Assembly (NCBI GenBank): GCA_022820925.1
Contig: JAJEEO010000006.1
Span: forward strand, 62,001-126,000
Direction: 5' to 3'
DNA: 64,000 nucleotides
Origin: Acidimicrobiia bacterium
GTDB taxonomy: Bacteria; Actinomycetota; Acidimicrobiia; Acidimicrobiales; Poriferisodalaceae
In this document: positions 40,756 to 64,000 of the stretch, piece by piece
Layout of the letters: every line of letters starts with the position of its first letter
Numbering within the stretch: position 1 is the first letter of the stretch
Position numbers and translations under genes: made by a program
Notes under the pieces: generated by a model
The model's input: the letters and a program-made list of their open reading frames with translations, nothing else
Database searches by the model: none
What the model was told of the DNA's origin: nothing

Positions 40756-42324
40756 ATGACCGCTCGTATTGGCATTACCTGGAGAACCGCGGCAGCGCTT
40801 GCGGCAGTGGTCGTGCTGTTGCCGTTGCTGGTGTTCGTCGATCCGTCGCCGAGCTCGGCGCACAACCAGACCGTCAGGCGATGCGCCTTTGACCCGTTCG
40901 CGGGCCAGCAGTGCTGGAAGGAGTCGGTGAGCCACACTCACACCTCCAACAACTACTCGCCCCCGCCTGACACGTCGCCGCCCACCACGACAGCGCCGCC
41001 GCCCACCACTGTGCCGGTGCCGAACCACTACTCGCCTCCGCCTGACACGTCGCCCAGGCCGAAGACGTGCCCGGCGGGAACGACCGGCACCCCGCCGGAC
41101 TGCCTCCCGGTCCCGTCCGACAACACCCGCCACGCCAATAGCCAGAGGTGCCCGGCAGGAACGACGGGCACCCCGCCGGACTGCCTCCCGGTCCCGTCCG
41201 ACAACACCCGTCACGCCGACAACCAAGGCGACGGTTCCGACAGCTCAGACAGCAGCGACGGCGCTAAGGACGGCGGCGAGGGAGAGCCTGACGAAAGCGA
41301 CTCTGCCGAAAGTGAAGGCGGCGACTGCGAGAGCGACGACTGCGGTGATGAAAGCACGTCAGAAGGCGAGCCGGATCCCAGCGATGCCAAGAATCTCCGC
41401 AACGCCCAAGACAGCGGCACCACGAGTACGCAATCGGCGTGCCCCACGTTGCTGGGCACGCATCCGCATTTGGACCGTGAGCAGCACCGGCACGAACTGC
41501 AGTCCGGCACGATGGCGGACTGCCACGACGCGACACCGGGCCACCAGCACTCCGACGGGACCGAGGACACTAGCGACGGACCAAACTACAGCGGCGCCGG
41601 ACCCGCTCTTGAGGCGGCACTCGGCCGGGTCGGCGACCTGATCGCGACCGGCACCGCTGAGTCTCTCGAAGCAGCCCGCAGCGCCCTCGACAATATCGCG
41701 GCAGACGTGAGAGAGGACGTGCTGCGTGGTGTTGACGCGATCCGACGACTCAACGAAGAAATCGACAAGCTCTGGCGAAGGATTCCTGGACCCGCCAGGA
41801 CGTTCGTCGAGACCCTCGCCAAGGGTGTGGCATGCGGCGCTTTGGTCGCGGCGGCAGCCAAGAGCACCGTCGCCACCGCAGGCGCAGCAGCCCCGGCGTG
41901 GGTCGTGTGGGCCGCCAGCCCTCCGGGCCAATTGGTCCTCGGAGCTACATGTGCTGGCCTCATCGAGGCGGCTGAGGAGATCATCGGCGGCGACGATGAC
42001 AGTGGCGCCGACGGCGCCGACACGGCGCCGAGCACGCCCGAGCCGACCGACTCAGGCAAGCCTGCGCCGCCTACGCAGTCGGACAGCAATGTCGCTGACA
42101 ACCCGGAGCCGGCTGACTCAGGCAACCCCGAGTCGATCACGCCGCCGACTACAGCGCCGCCGTCAGACACGGTGACGGAGCAAGACTGGCGCCAGGCACG
42201 CGCAGAGTGGAAGCGGGGTCTGCGGCCACGATCTGACGTGGACCTGCTGTTCAATCGCTGGCTCTGCCAGCAGGGTTGGCAGAGCGCCTGCGACCTCGCC
42301 GATGGCATCGCCAACGGGCGATGA
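40756..42324 (+). CDS. Secreted low-complexity protein with Pro/Thr-rich, Asp/Ser-rich and C-terminal helical segments
   Basis: N-terminal signal-like segment (TAAALAAVVVLLPLLVFVDPSPSSA), YSPPPDTSP repeats, two CPAGTTGTPPDCLPVPSDNTRHA repeats, acidic SD-rich stretch. Confidence 0.7.
   Translation: MTARIGITWRTAAALAAVVVLLPLLVFVDPSPSSAHNQTVRRCAFDPFAGQQCWKESVSHTHTSNNYSPPPDTSPPTTTAPPPTTVPVPNHYSPPPDTSPRPKTCPAGTTGTPPDCLPVPSDNTRHANSQRCPAGTTGTPPDCLPVPSDNTRHADNQGDGSDSSDSSDGAKDGGEGEPDESDSAESEGGDCESDDCGDESTSEGEPDPSDAKNLRNAQDSGTTSTQSACPTLLGTHPHLDREQHRHELQSGTMADCHDATPGHQHSDGTEDTSDGPNYSGAGPALEAALGRVGDLIATGTAESLEAARSALDNIAADVREDVLRGVDAIRRLNEEIDKLWRRIPGPARTFVETLAKGVACGALVAAAAKSTVATAGAAAPAWVVWAASPPGQLVLGATCAGLIEAAEEIIGGDDDSGADGADTAPSTPEPTDSGKPAPPTQSDSNVADNPEPADSGNPESITPPTTAPPSDTVTEQDWRQARAEWKRGLRPRSDVDLLFNRWLCQQGWQSACDLADGIANGR
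41068..41229 (+). repeat. Two tandem 81-nt in-frame repeats within the secreted protein gene
   Basis: CPAGTTGTPPDCLPVPSDNTRHANSQR / CPAGTTGTPPDCLPVPSDNTRHADNQ; exact 81-nt offset. Confidence 0.85.
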
Positions 42325-61508: not shown

Positions 61509-61838
61509 TTACGCGAGGGCAAGGCCGGCGGCGGCTGCGGCAGTCGCGCCGGTGATGGTGAGGGAGATGTATCCGAGCGCGAGCAGGGGACTGGCGCGGG
61601 CCAGGCGCACTGACTCGGGAAGCAATCCTGAGACCGTCGTGAGTGCGCCGAGACCCGCTGTGCCGATGACGGTCGTCGTGGCATCACCTGTGCCTGCCAG
61701 CAGGCCGAGCGCGAAGGCGCCCGAGATGTTGATGAGCAGCGTTCCGCCCGGGCCCTGGGCGGTGCTGACTCTCCAGCGCAGCACGGTGCCCGCAGCAGCC
61801 GCGATGCAGAAGCCGACGGCCACTGCCAGCGAGGTCAT
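61509..61838 (-). CDS. crcB: Fluoride channel CrcB/FluC family protein
   Basis: AAAAGTVLRWRVS...GTLLINISGAFALGLLAG...GLGALTTVSGLLPE. Confidence 0.88.
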   Translation of the reverse strand: MTSLAVAVGFCIAAAAGTVLRWRVSTAQGPGGTLLINISGAFALGLLAGTGDATTTVIGTAGLGALTTVSGLLPESVRLARASPLLALGYISLTITGATAAAAAGLALA

Positions 61839-62233
61839 GGCCGGGCTCCGCGTGCGATCGCGAGCGTGCGGCCCGTGACAAACGCCAATGTGCATGCGGC
61901 GATCGTCAGGCCGAGCCACGCGAATGCCGTGCCGACACGCCCGTCGTCGAGGTAGGTGGCCAGCTGGAGCGCCAGCGCCGACATGGAGGTGAGCGCACCG
62001 CAGAAGCCTGCTGCCAGCCACGGTGACGGCGCGGGGCCGAGACCAGTTCGGGATCGATGCGGCAGGTGTCGCATGCGCTCGTGACGGGCGGTGACCCAGC
62101 CTATGAGAGCGCAGCCGACCACGTTGGCCACGAGGAGGGCCCACGCCCCGTCCAGCTGCGTCGTCGCCGCCCATCTGGCTGCCGCGCCGATGACTCCCGC
62201 GATGGCGACCGACCCGGCGGTGCGCAGCGTCAT
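61835..62233 (-). CDS. crcB: Fluoride channel CrcB/FluC family protein (second copy)
   Basis: AGVIGAAARWAATTQ...GAWALLVANVVGCALIGWVTA...AAGFCGALTSMSALALQ; overlaps the next crcB. Confidence 0.85.
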   Translation of the reverse strand: MTLRTAGSVAIAGVIGAAARWAATTQLDGAWALLVANVVGCALIGWVTARHERMRHLPHRSRTGLGPAPSPWLAAGFCGALTSMSALALQLATYLDDGRVGTAFAWLGLTIAACTLAFVTGRTLAIARGARP

Positions 62234-62257
62234 CTCTGCTCGCCTGGTGGCGAGGGA

Positions 62258-62956
62258 TCAGCCCGCGACCGAGGTCGCGGGCTCCATCAGGCGGTCGTCG
62301 CTGGAGGCGTGGCCAGCCTGCGGCCATGCTCGGGCGGCAGTCGCCAAGCCTTCGATGAGCGCCTCGTGATGGGGCACCCGTCCGGGGCCGCGGAATCCTG
62401 TCCACATCGGGCTCTTGCCGCGGATGCGCGGCGGCAGTTCGATCTGGACGCCGCCGCCGCGTGGCAGGTTGCAGGGGTTGCGCGGGTGCTGGCCGGCCAG
62501 CGTCTTGGGGATGTCATCGAGACGATGAAGGATCTCGTAGTGCGGCAGTCGCCCGATCAGATGCACCGCGACGTGGGCCGCCAGCGTCCGGTTGCGCCCG
62601 CCCAGCAGCACCGCTCGCAGCAGCCGGGGGCTGCCGAATCCGTGGACTGCCACCACGACATCCACATGGTCGAGGAACTCACGCAGCACCGGCGAATCAG
62701 CGGGATCGAAGCTGTGGCTAGGCAGGTGCCACTGATCGTCGGGACCCTGCAGGCAGGCATACACCGAGGCGTCGCTGCGCTCGGCGGCCGCCGAGGCGAT
62801 GTCGTCGGTCACCTCTTCGAGCCAGCCGCCGTGAAAGGCCATGAAGCCGAACCGCGAACGCAGTTGCAGCACTTCGCTCACCCCGGGACGCCCGAGCAAT
62901 TCGGCGAAGGGCCGCTCAGCGTCGAGCAGCGTGCGGTCCTTCAGGTGCAGTGCCAC
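62258..62956 (-). CDS. Poly-gamma-glutamate hydrolase-like family protein
   Basis: FGFMAFHGGWLEEVTDDIASAAAERSDASVYACLQG...VVVAVHGFG...NPCNLPRGGGVQIELPPRIRG. Confidence 0.75.
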   Translation of the reverse strand: MALHLKDRTLLDAERPFAELLGRPGVSEVLQLRSRFGFMAFHGGWLEEVTDDIASAAAERSDASVYACLQGPDDQWHLPSHSFDPADSPVLREFLDHVDVVVAVHGFGSPRLLRAVLLGGRNRTLAAHVAVHLIGRLPHYEILHRLDDIPKTLAGQHPRNPCNLPRGGGVQIELPPRIRGKSPMWTGFRGPGRVPHHEALIEGLATAARAWPQAGHASSDDRLMEPATSVAG

Positions 62957-62962
62957 GGTGGA

Positions 62963-63880
62963 TCAGTTCAGCATCTCCGCGGCACTGCTCGCTTGGTCTG
63001 GAGCTGCTGGGTCGCCGCCGCCGTTCTCGGCTGAGGCCGTCTCGCTGCGGCGGCCCGTCGCCAGCATCGCCATGACACCGACGGCGAGCACGATGCTCAT
63101 GATGATTCCGAGCCGCACGCCGCCGACGGAGGCCACCCAGTTGGACAGGCTGCTGCTCCAGCGTTCGACAGTCACCACCAGCCCGTCGCCGCCGCGGTCG
63201 GTCAGGTCGATGAACCAGTACCAGATGGTGAACGCGCCGGCTGCGATCATCAGGATCGCCGCGATGGTGTCGGTGTAGCGCATGAGCACCCGCAGCTTGC
63301 TCAGCAGCCAGCCGCGTGCCAGCGCCAGGCTGACGGCCAGCGACGTCAGCACCATGCCCATGCCCAGCGCATAGAGCACAAATGACACGACGCCGCCGAC
63401 GAAGCTGTCATCGCCGGCGGAGGCCGTGACCACGACAAGGAACGTGGCCAGTCCGCACGAGACCGAGGCCACCGCATAGCTCACGCCGAACAGGAACAGC
63501 GAGCGCATGTCCCGCCCGCTCGCCCCTCGCTCGAACTTGGGCAGGTAGGCCGTGAGCCGGAAGCCGGCGAGGATCGCGACGCCGAGCGCGATGAGCCCCA
63601 CCCCGATGACGATGGCCGCCCACGGCACGTAGTCGCGCAGGGCGCTCAAACCCGCCGACAGCGCGATGCCGACGATGCCGAACACCACCACGATGCCGGT
63701 GGTGACGACCGCGCCGGTGGCCAATGCCCGCCCGACGCCTGCACGGGAGCTGCCCTCGCCGGCTCGGCGGTCGATGCCCAGGAAGAACGACAGGTAGGCG
63801 GGCAACATCGCGAAGCCGCACGGGTTGATGGTCGCCACGATGCCAGCCGTGAAAGCGAAGGTGAGCCGTGCGCTGTTCAC
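62963..63880 (-). CDS. ccdA: Cytochrome c biogenesis protein CcdA family
   Basis: TAGIVATINPCGFAMLPAYLSFFLG...SYAVASVSCGLATFLVVVTASAG; GTG start. Confidence 0.92.
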   Translation of the reverse strand: MNSARLTFAFTAGIVATINPCGFAMLPAYLSFFLGIDRRAGEGSSRAGVGRALATGAVVTTGIVVVFGIVGIALSAGLSALRDYVPWAAIVIGVGLIALGVAILAGFRLTAYLPKFERGASGRDMRSLFLFGVSYAVASVSCGLATFLVVVTASAGDDSFVGGVVSFVLYALGMGMVLTSLAVSLALARGWLLSKLRVLMRYTDTIAAILMIAAGAFTIWYWFIDLTDRGGDGLVVTVERWSSSLSNWVASVGGVRLGIIMSIVLAVGVMAMLATGRRSETASAENGGGDPAAPDQASSAAEMLN

Positions 63881-63895
63881 AATCCGCTGTGTCCT

Positions 63896-64000
63896 TTCTT
63901 CGGCCTAGAGGCCGCTGTGTCGATTCTTCGGCCTAAAGGCCGCTGTGTCGATTCTTCGGGCTAAAGCCCGCTGTGTTGTTTCTTCGGCCTAGAGGCCGAA
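63896..64000. repeat. 28-nt tandem hairpin repeat array (3.75 units, truncated by the window edge)
   Basis: Units at 63896, 63924, 63952 and 63980: TTCTTCGGCCTAgAGGCCGCTGTGTCGA; third unit has CGGGCTAAAGCCCG. Confidence 0.9.

Follow-up and report, generated by a model that had tools for sequence, protein, structure and literature searches.

Hairpin repeats sharing a short core at gene ends in a genus of Acidimicrobiia

A hairpin array between tlpA and ccdA

The window analysed here is a stretch of 64,000 nucleotides from an Acidimicrobiia bacterium; it ends at position 126000 of a 281 kb contig, which continues for about 155 kb beyond it. At this end of the window, in minus-strand order, a gene for a TlpA/ResA-like thioredoxin (tlpA) is followed by four 28-nt units and then by ccdA. 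The 3' end of tlpA lies at 63989–64000 and the gene continues outside the window to 64705 (ORF L002:1490-2206, minus strand); its product has an AhpC-TSA/Redoxin match, with ResA/DsbE/TlpA matches below cut-off. The ccdA gene (DsbD_TM family; Pfam PF02683, E 1.2e-7) is a minus-strand open reading frame at 62963–63880 and starts with GTGA.

TRF reports a 28-nt unit in 4.1 copies at 63884–63998 (88% matches), and the four units with paired stems occupy 63887–63998. In transcription order, unit 1 (63971–63998, minus strand as are the others) consists of the hairpin CGGCC-TCTA-GGCCG and the linker AAGAAACAACACAG. Its stem reaches 8 bp when tlpA codons are included (CTTCGGCC/GGCCGAAG), and the tlpA stop codon TAG (63989–63991) lies inside this outermost hairpin. 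Unit 2 (63943–63970) has both arms changed, CGGGC-TTTA-GCCCG, and is followed by the linker AAGAATCGACACAG, which also follows the CGGCC-TTTA-GGCCG hairpin of unit 3 (63915–63942). Unit 4 (63887–63914) carries CGGCC-TCTA-GGCCG and the linker AAGAAAGGACACAG. By inspection, the core of this last unit contains AAAGGA (63892–63897), the probable Shine-Dalgarno site of ccdA. Directly 5' of the ccdA start, CGGATT (63881–63886) is read from species comparison as the remnant of a fifth 5' arm, a position that reads CGG..T-ATG in most other species.

The initial annotation had described four 28-nt units with paired stems, a change of both arms in one of them (unit 2 in transcription order) and a unit tail, CCGCTGTGTC, directly before the ccdA GTG, all of which agree with TRF and the sequence. 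It had also let the array run off the window edge. However, the next bases in the extended contig are the coding end of the TlpA/ResA-like gene, so the array is complete with four units. An artefact at a contig end was rejected, as the contig continues and related units stand at the same locus in 9 of the 10 other species compared (one degenerate).

With up to 3 mismatches allowed, GGCCTNNAGGCCGAAGAA matches the window four times, each time within the array (chance expectation 0.54), and a stricter unit pattern has four matches in the whole 3.28-Mb assembly, again all in the array. The array folds far better than its shuffles (z -4.8). A search of 63500–64000 against Rfam gave no match up to E 5, and the array hairpins have no T-run 3' of them.

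Three other features were recorded in or near the window. Adjacent CrcB-like (fluoride channel family) genes, 61509–62405 and 61835–62233 minus, lie beside a poly-gamma-glutamate hydrolase domain protein. An 81-nt tandem duplication (94% matches) is found at 41063–41217. Just outside the window, at L002:6915-7093 (contig about 131414–131592), 1.8 copies of a 99-nt tandem repeat cover most of a tRNA-Lys(ttt) gene, where ARAGORN calls one complete gene only.

The tlpA-ccdA junction across the genus

The locus was compared in 11 species of the genus, represented by MAGs titled Acidimicrobiia or related names; isolate names suggest that the genus is probably sponge-associated. The tlpA-ccdA pair is present in 11/11 species. 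Copy number, which the initial annotation had proposed to compare, ranges from 0 to 4: four units in the window's species (G000) and G005, three in G001, G007 and G010, two in G002, G006 and G008, one in G009, one degenerate unit in G004 and none in G003. In a tlpA+ccdA tree the unit-less G003 is sister to species with 2–4 units, which implies that losses or gains of units are frequent. Uncompensated stem mutations, named beforehand as evidence against a selected structure, do occur: the degenerate unit of G004 lacks the hairpin, and G005 and G009 have single units with one mismatch each.

In other genera of the family (loci L043–L062), tlpA and ccdA overlap or directly adjoin each other (for example ATGA or ATGAGTGA). 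The ccdA gene invariably begins with (A/G)TGA. In the one-unit species G009, CGGTCTATGA stands at both the tlpA end and the ccdA start, which makes the unit a duplicate of the stop/start junction. Three species (G004, G008 and G009) have an ATG that overlaps the stop of tlpA; it begins a frame of 10–20 codons whose terminal TGA overlaps the ccdA ATG. The window's species and the majority of the rest have lost this upstream ATG (CTCTAG, CTGTAG, CTCTAA), and the stop is kept in every unit. A similarity to 'ACACAGCGGCCT' inside tlpA, or to the last 30 nt of tlpA, offers a possible origin for the ccdA unit and is suggestive only.

The last unit contains AAAGGA, AAGGGA or GAAGGA in 9/9 species with intact arrays, and among the 14 inner units only two, both in G010, have a Shine-Dalgarno-like motif. 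Judging by this comparison, the core of the last unit was apparently recruited as the ccdA Shine-Dalgarno site. Re-initiation is nearly abolished at gaps of about 20–38 nt (PMC10666635), so the coupling of ccdA to tlpA would probably be weakened, with ccdA now relying on its own Shine-Dalgarno site.

A dispersed family of host-matching hairpins

The strict unit pattern is confined to tlpA-ccdA, and all strong matches of a covariance model of the units are likewise there. The model's next matches, however, are hairpins with the same linker after other genes, some of them in tandem at 28–29 nt; the model was built from a MAFFT alignment with a misplaced loop gap in the 15-nt hairpins and served for finding candidates, not for counting pairs. 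Searches with the core pattern revealed further tandem sites with spacings of 21–54 nt. Beyond tlpA-ccdA, 12 or more other genes have the same architecture.

The units follow a common plan: the last codons of the host gene (T), a short loop usually containing the stop codon, the reverse complement of T, a core, and T again. The core of about 12 nt, approximately CRWCMRRCACAG, is common to the loci, and the stems are locus-specific, the 5' arm being the host gene's own tail. After alignment of the linkers, core examples include CGACAAGCACAG, CGACCAGCACAG, CATCAGACACAG, CATCGGACACAG and CAACCAGCACAG; inner ccdA units of G007 and G006 carry the 12-nt core as well (CAACCAGCACAG and CAACCAGCGCAG, respectively).

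In the genome of the window's species, hairpin and core occur together in about 11 tandem arrays. This census covers 0.8 of the 3.28 Mb in stretches; its filter passes 15 arrays in real sequence, a few of them unrelated, and 2 in reversed sequence. Of the family's arrays, eight span or touch a stop codon: F1 (tlpA-ccdA, at the tlpA stop), F2 (gene tail ...EVSFQR-stop), F3 (...FGYRP-stop), F4 (ferredoxin-like, ...FIEA-stop), F8 (...RPLAGG-stop), F11 (PurH-like, ...QFRH-stop), F12 (enoyl-CoA hydratase-like, ...SGR-stop) and F14 (...IAA-stop). Three lie inside reading frames: F9 antisense in glmM, F10 in-frame in glmS and F13 in-frame near a C-terminus. The gene names at F4 and F9–F12 come from recognisable sequence. 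Two further loci, F5 and F6, were found in species other than the window's. The array at tlpA-ccdA is thus one locus of many, and the initial annotation's reading of it as a selected structure in a ccdA leader or promoter has to be enlarged in scope and is not supported as to place, since the region is intercistronic and the architecture recurs at a dozen or more unrelated gene ends.

With up to 1 mismatch, GAAGCRACMAGCACAG gives 31 matches (control: 3) across the genus's 11 genomes; in 28 genomes from other genera of the family the figures are 12 and, for the control, about 19. At the sensitivity of this pattern search, the core family looks genus-specific.

Several other repeats were met in the same searches. 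Several TRF arrays of 57-nt and 21-nt repeats in coding sequence were set aside as being without hairpin and core. Near-identical 57-nt tandem repeats (GGCGAAGCCGTGGCCCGAGCGGCC...) outside the hairpin family occur in separate places, L212:12692-12847 and L230:18636-18792. In-frame 30-nt hairpin repeats at L202:17351-17461 and L202:18031-18096 lie at the C-terminal ends of two neighbouring genes, which resemble NADH dehydrogenase subunits by recognisable sequence and have linkers weakly like the core. At L216:10309-10493, 74-nt direct repeat units each have a strong hairpin (GGCCGGAGATATCTCCGGCC) without the core and possibly belong to another family. In three species (L184, L187, L188) the core, as GAAGCAACCAGCACAG, also stands directly 5' of a start codon (GGGGGAGGACCGATGGCC); G002 has two copies at a spacing of 21 nt.

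The proposal that pairing is kept while sequence changes was upheld by shuffling 3' arms within loci. Within-unit pairing exceeds that of the shuffles at seven loci, namely F1 (P 0.0004, 14 tetraloop units), F4 (P 0.001), F5 (P 0.003), F11 (P 0.006), F12 (0 of 5000), F13 (P 0.001) and F14 (P 0.027). These tests leave relatedness in; when identical arm pairs are counted once, F13 alone falls below 0.05 (P 0.011), with P 0.08–0.09 at F4, F5, F12 and F14. F1 has two distinct tetraloop arm types only and is uninformative on distinct pairs; one event may account for its switch. Both arms change together, by several bases, at F5 (CGCTAG/CTAGCG vs CGGTAA/TTACCG) and F14 (GCATCGCT/AGCGATGC vs GGCTGGCT/AGCCAGCC). 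Joint changes are also seen at F4 (GAGGC/GCCTC vs GAAGC/GCTTC) and F11 (CGCCA/TGGCG vs CGGCA/TGCCG), and inside a reading frame at F13 (GATGC/GCATC, GACGC/GCGTC, GAGGC/GCCTC, GACAC/GTGTC). Uncompensated, mismatched units persist at F14 and F4. One-sided transitions on the sense strand give G.U over A.C at 34:12 in all units and 23:12 in distinct pairs (P 0.09), a hint of constraint at the RNA level.

Empty and filled sites were sought by comparing the tails of twelve host genes between species of the genus. At F5, G008 differs from G003 by an exact 32-nt insertion with an 8-nt direct repeat and 100% identity over 158 nt outside it (empty CACTACCGCTAGCTACTG in G003; filled CACTAC[CGCTAGCTCGCTAGCGGTAGCGACAAGCACGG]CGCTAGCTACTG in G008). 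The insert holds CTAGCGGTAG, a 10-nt exact reverse complement of host CTACCGCTAG that is absent from the empty allele. At F2, G006 (empty) and G003 (filled) differ by a 28-nt insertion with 98.8% flank identity; the downstream copy keeps the empty allele's CAGAGGTAG, the upstream copy is CAGCGTTAG, and both encode Q-R-stop. This insert too contains a reverse complement of adjacent host sequence, here 7 nt, that the empty allele lacks. F13 shows a 33-nt in-frame insertion in G001 and G007 relative to the empty allele of G004. As at F2, the copy matching the empty allele is the downstream one at F3, which was read by eye; flanks diverge at F3 and F11. C-termini are alike with or without units at the stop-codon loci (FQR, FGYRP, FIEA, AHYR and RPLAGG, each before the stop). 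Exact deletion between direct repeats could yield the same empty/filled pairs, and we claim no direction of change.

The identical 158 nt at F5 comprise the gene tail and the start of the next gene (L252 in G003; L260/L259 in G008/G009) and are shared across the genus's two deep clades, which suggests recent exchange between species. A glmS segment is nearly identical in G001 and G008.

Origin of the repeats and rival explanations

We favour, with some reserve, an explanation in which these are tiny, genus-specific dispersed repeats: template-switch DNA synthesis would create them and maintain their pairing, slippage would expand them, and gene ends would tolerate them. A unit would be born by short-range template switching, the fold-back copying of T producing the inverted arm, and later switches would keep the arms matched. 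Slippage between direct repeats would then raise or lower unit number. Units would persist because duplication of the gene tail either preserves the C-terminus and the stop or contributes an in-frame repeat. At tlpA-ccdA, an ancestral ATGA stop/start overlap would have been pushed apart, with the consequences for coupling and for the ccdA Shine-Dalgarno site suggested above. Template switching is known to make reverse-complement copies, to repair existing stems in single events, and to be able to create and maintain hairpins (PMC8794818). It would account for the host-matching arms, the joint multi-base changes and the units inside coding sequence; slippage would account for the variation in copy number, and preservation of the C-terminus and stop by the first copy for tolerance at gene tails. 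The shared core in unrelated genes is not accounted for by template switching: the inserted bases do not all have a donor nearby, the core being absent from the empty alleles compared. Two further observations count against the favoured explanation, namely the hairpin present in alleles without the core at F8, and partly at F4 and F12, and the G.U excess, which template switching alone does not predict. It is conceivable, though doubtful, that this is a new kind of selfish repeat which inherits only the 12-nt spacer, the hairpin being rebuilt at each site by fold-back copying of the host gene end, which would supply both the matching stem-loop and the duplicate stop; the core would be put in place by some polymerase or reverse transcriptase.

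Rather unlikely, in our assessment, is a selected RNA element in which the stop-codon hairpin and core act in mRNA at gene 3' ends, in 3'-end formation, exonuclease protection or the regulation of termination and re-initiation, with compensatory changes preserving the fold. The sense-strand position of hairpins and core near the stop at most loci, the covariation at seven loci, the G.U excess and the folding of the array RNA speak for it. However, presence and copy number vary freely among related species down to zero units, some units lie in-frame in coding sequence (glmS, the F13 tail), another runs antisense to glmM, uncompensated units persist, and Rfam gave no match. The shared core and host-derived arms exclude a simple satellite, a reading that the initial annotation had also set aside; the selected structure that it suggested instead is not established, because template switching at inverted repeats also gives joint arm changes without RNA selection (PMC8794818).

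A regulator specific to ccdA, which would tune its translation or attenuate transcription between tlpA and ccdA, would fit the position between a thioredoxin gene and ccdA and the AAAGGA-type motif kept almost only beside ccdA. It is made improbable by the same architecture at a dozen unrelated genes, the two species with no array or a degenerate unit, and hairpins without a following T-run. Slightly less probable still is a non-autonomous palindrome of REP/BIME or RPE type moved by a transposase. Such elements are small, dispersed and palindromic, with many copies 3' of genes and some in-frame inside genes (PMC3733652, PMC2229807), but here the arms match the host gene and are not conserved between loci, the constant GTAG/CGTC tag is absent from the arrays read, and a Y1/RAYT transposase (PF01797) was not found in the species' own genome (assembly about 96% complete), a search whose control was positive in 5 of 14 genomes. 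We give least credence to a ribosome relay, with units as chained mini-cistrons (ATGA...ATGA) passing ribosomes from tlpA to ccdA. The 10–20 codon frames of G004, G008 and G009 would suit it, and G004 keeps its mini-frame despite having lost the hairpin and Shine-Dalgarno site; yet in most species, that of the window included, the missing upstream ATG breaks the chain, and mini-frames follow from duplicating an ATGA junction.

The family resembles several known systems in part. Template-switch hairpins (Monttinen and Loytynoja 2022, PMC8794818) likewise show one-event reverse-complement copies, joint arm changes and stem repair, and the F5 and F2 inserts are of this kind; the present family adds a constant 12-nt core and tandem host-tail copies at many loci. 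REPs and BIMEs, GTAG- or CGTC-tagged palindromes of 20–40 bp, are similar in having many copies, mostly 3' of coding regions and often grouped (PMC3733652). Their hairpins are alike within a family, whereas here each locus has its own host-derived arms, the linker alone is shared, and the flank is approximately CRWCMRRCACAG in place of an unpaired tag at the stem foot; GTAG stands at the stem foot in F5 only, paired with host CTAC. Rickettsia palindromic elements are comparable as palindromes tolerated in-frame in protein genes, as at glmS and the F13 C-terminus (and, antisense, glmM), but they are 105–146 bp long with a sequence of their own (PMC2229807), in contrast to inserts of 28–54 nt with host-templated arms. 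Minisatellites (VNTRs) share tandem units whose number differs between species, seen here at tlpA-ccdA and at other loci, and differ in that the present unlinked loci have a common core and architecture and arms that co-vary. Finally, ATGA stop/start overlaps (PMC6728339, PMC10666635) represent the ancestral tlpA-ccdA junction type, here duplicated and pushed apart by the repeat. Literature searches covering repeats, palindromes at stop codons, repeats between cistrons and the Acidimicrobiia of sponges gave no description of such elements.

A functional RNA is usually taken as proven when both arms of a stem change together. Here, covariation occurs at many unrelated gene ends and inside coding sequence, in a repeat that varies between close relatives. 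This small repeat is of an unusual kind, seems to spread through errors in DNA copying, and may or may not serve a function. If the core is indeed carried from gene to gene and the arms are re-templated, this would be a mode of repeat spread for which we found no description. At one locus, a repeat core has apparently been recruited as a ribosome binding site. The genus is a natural test case for the extent to which DNA synthesis by itself can produce covariation.
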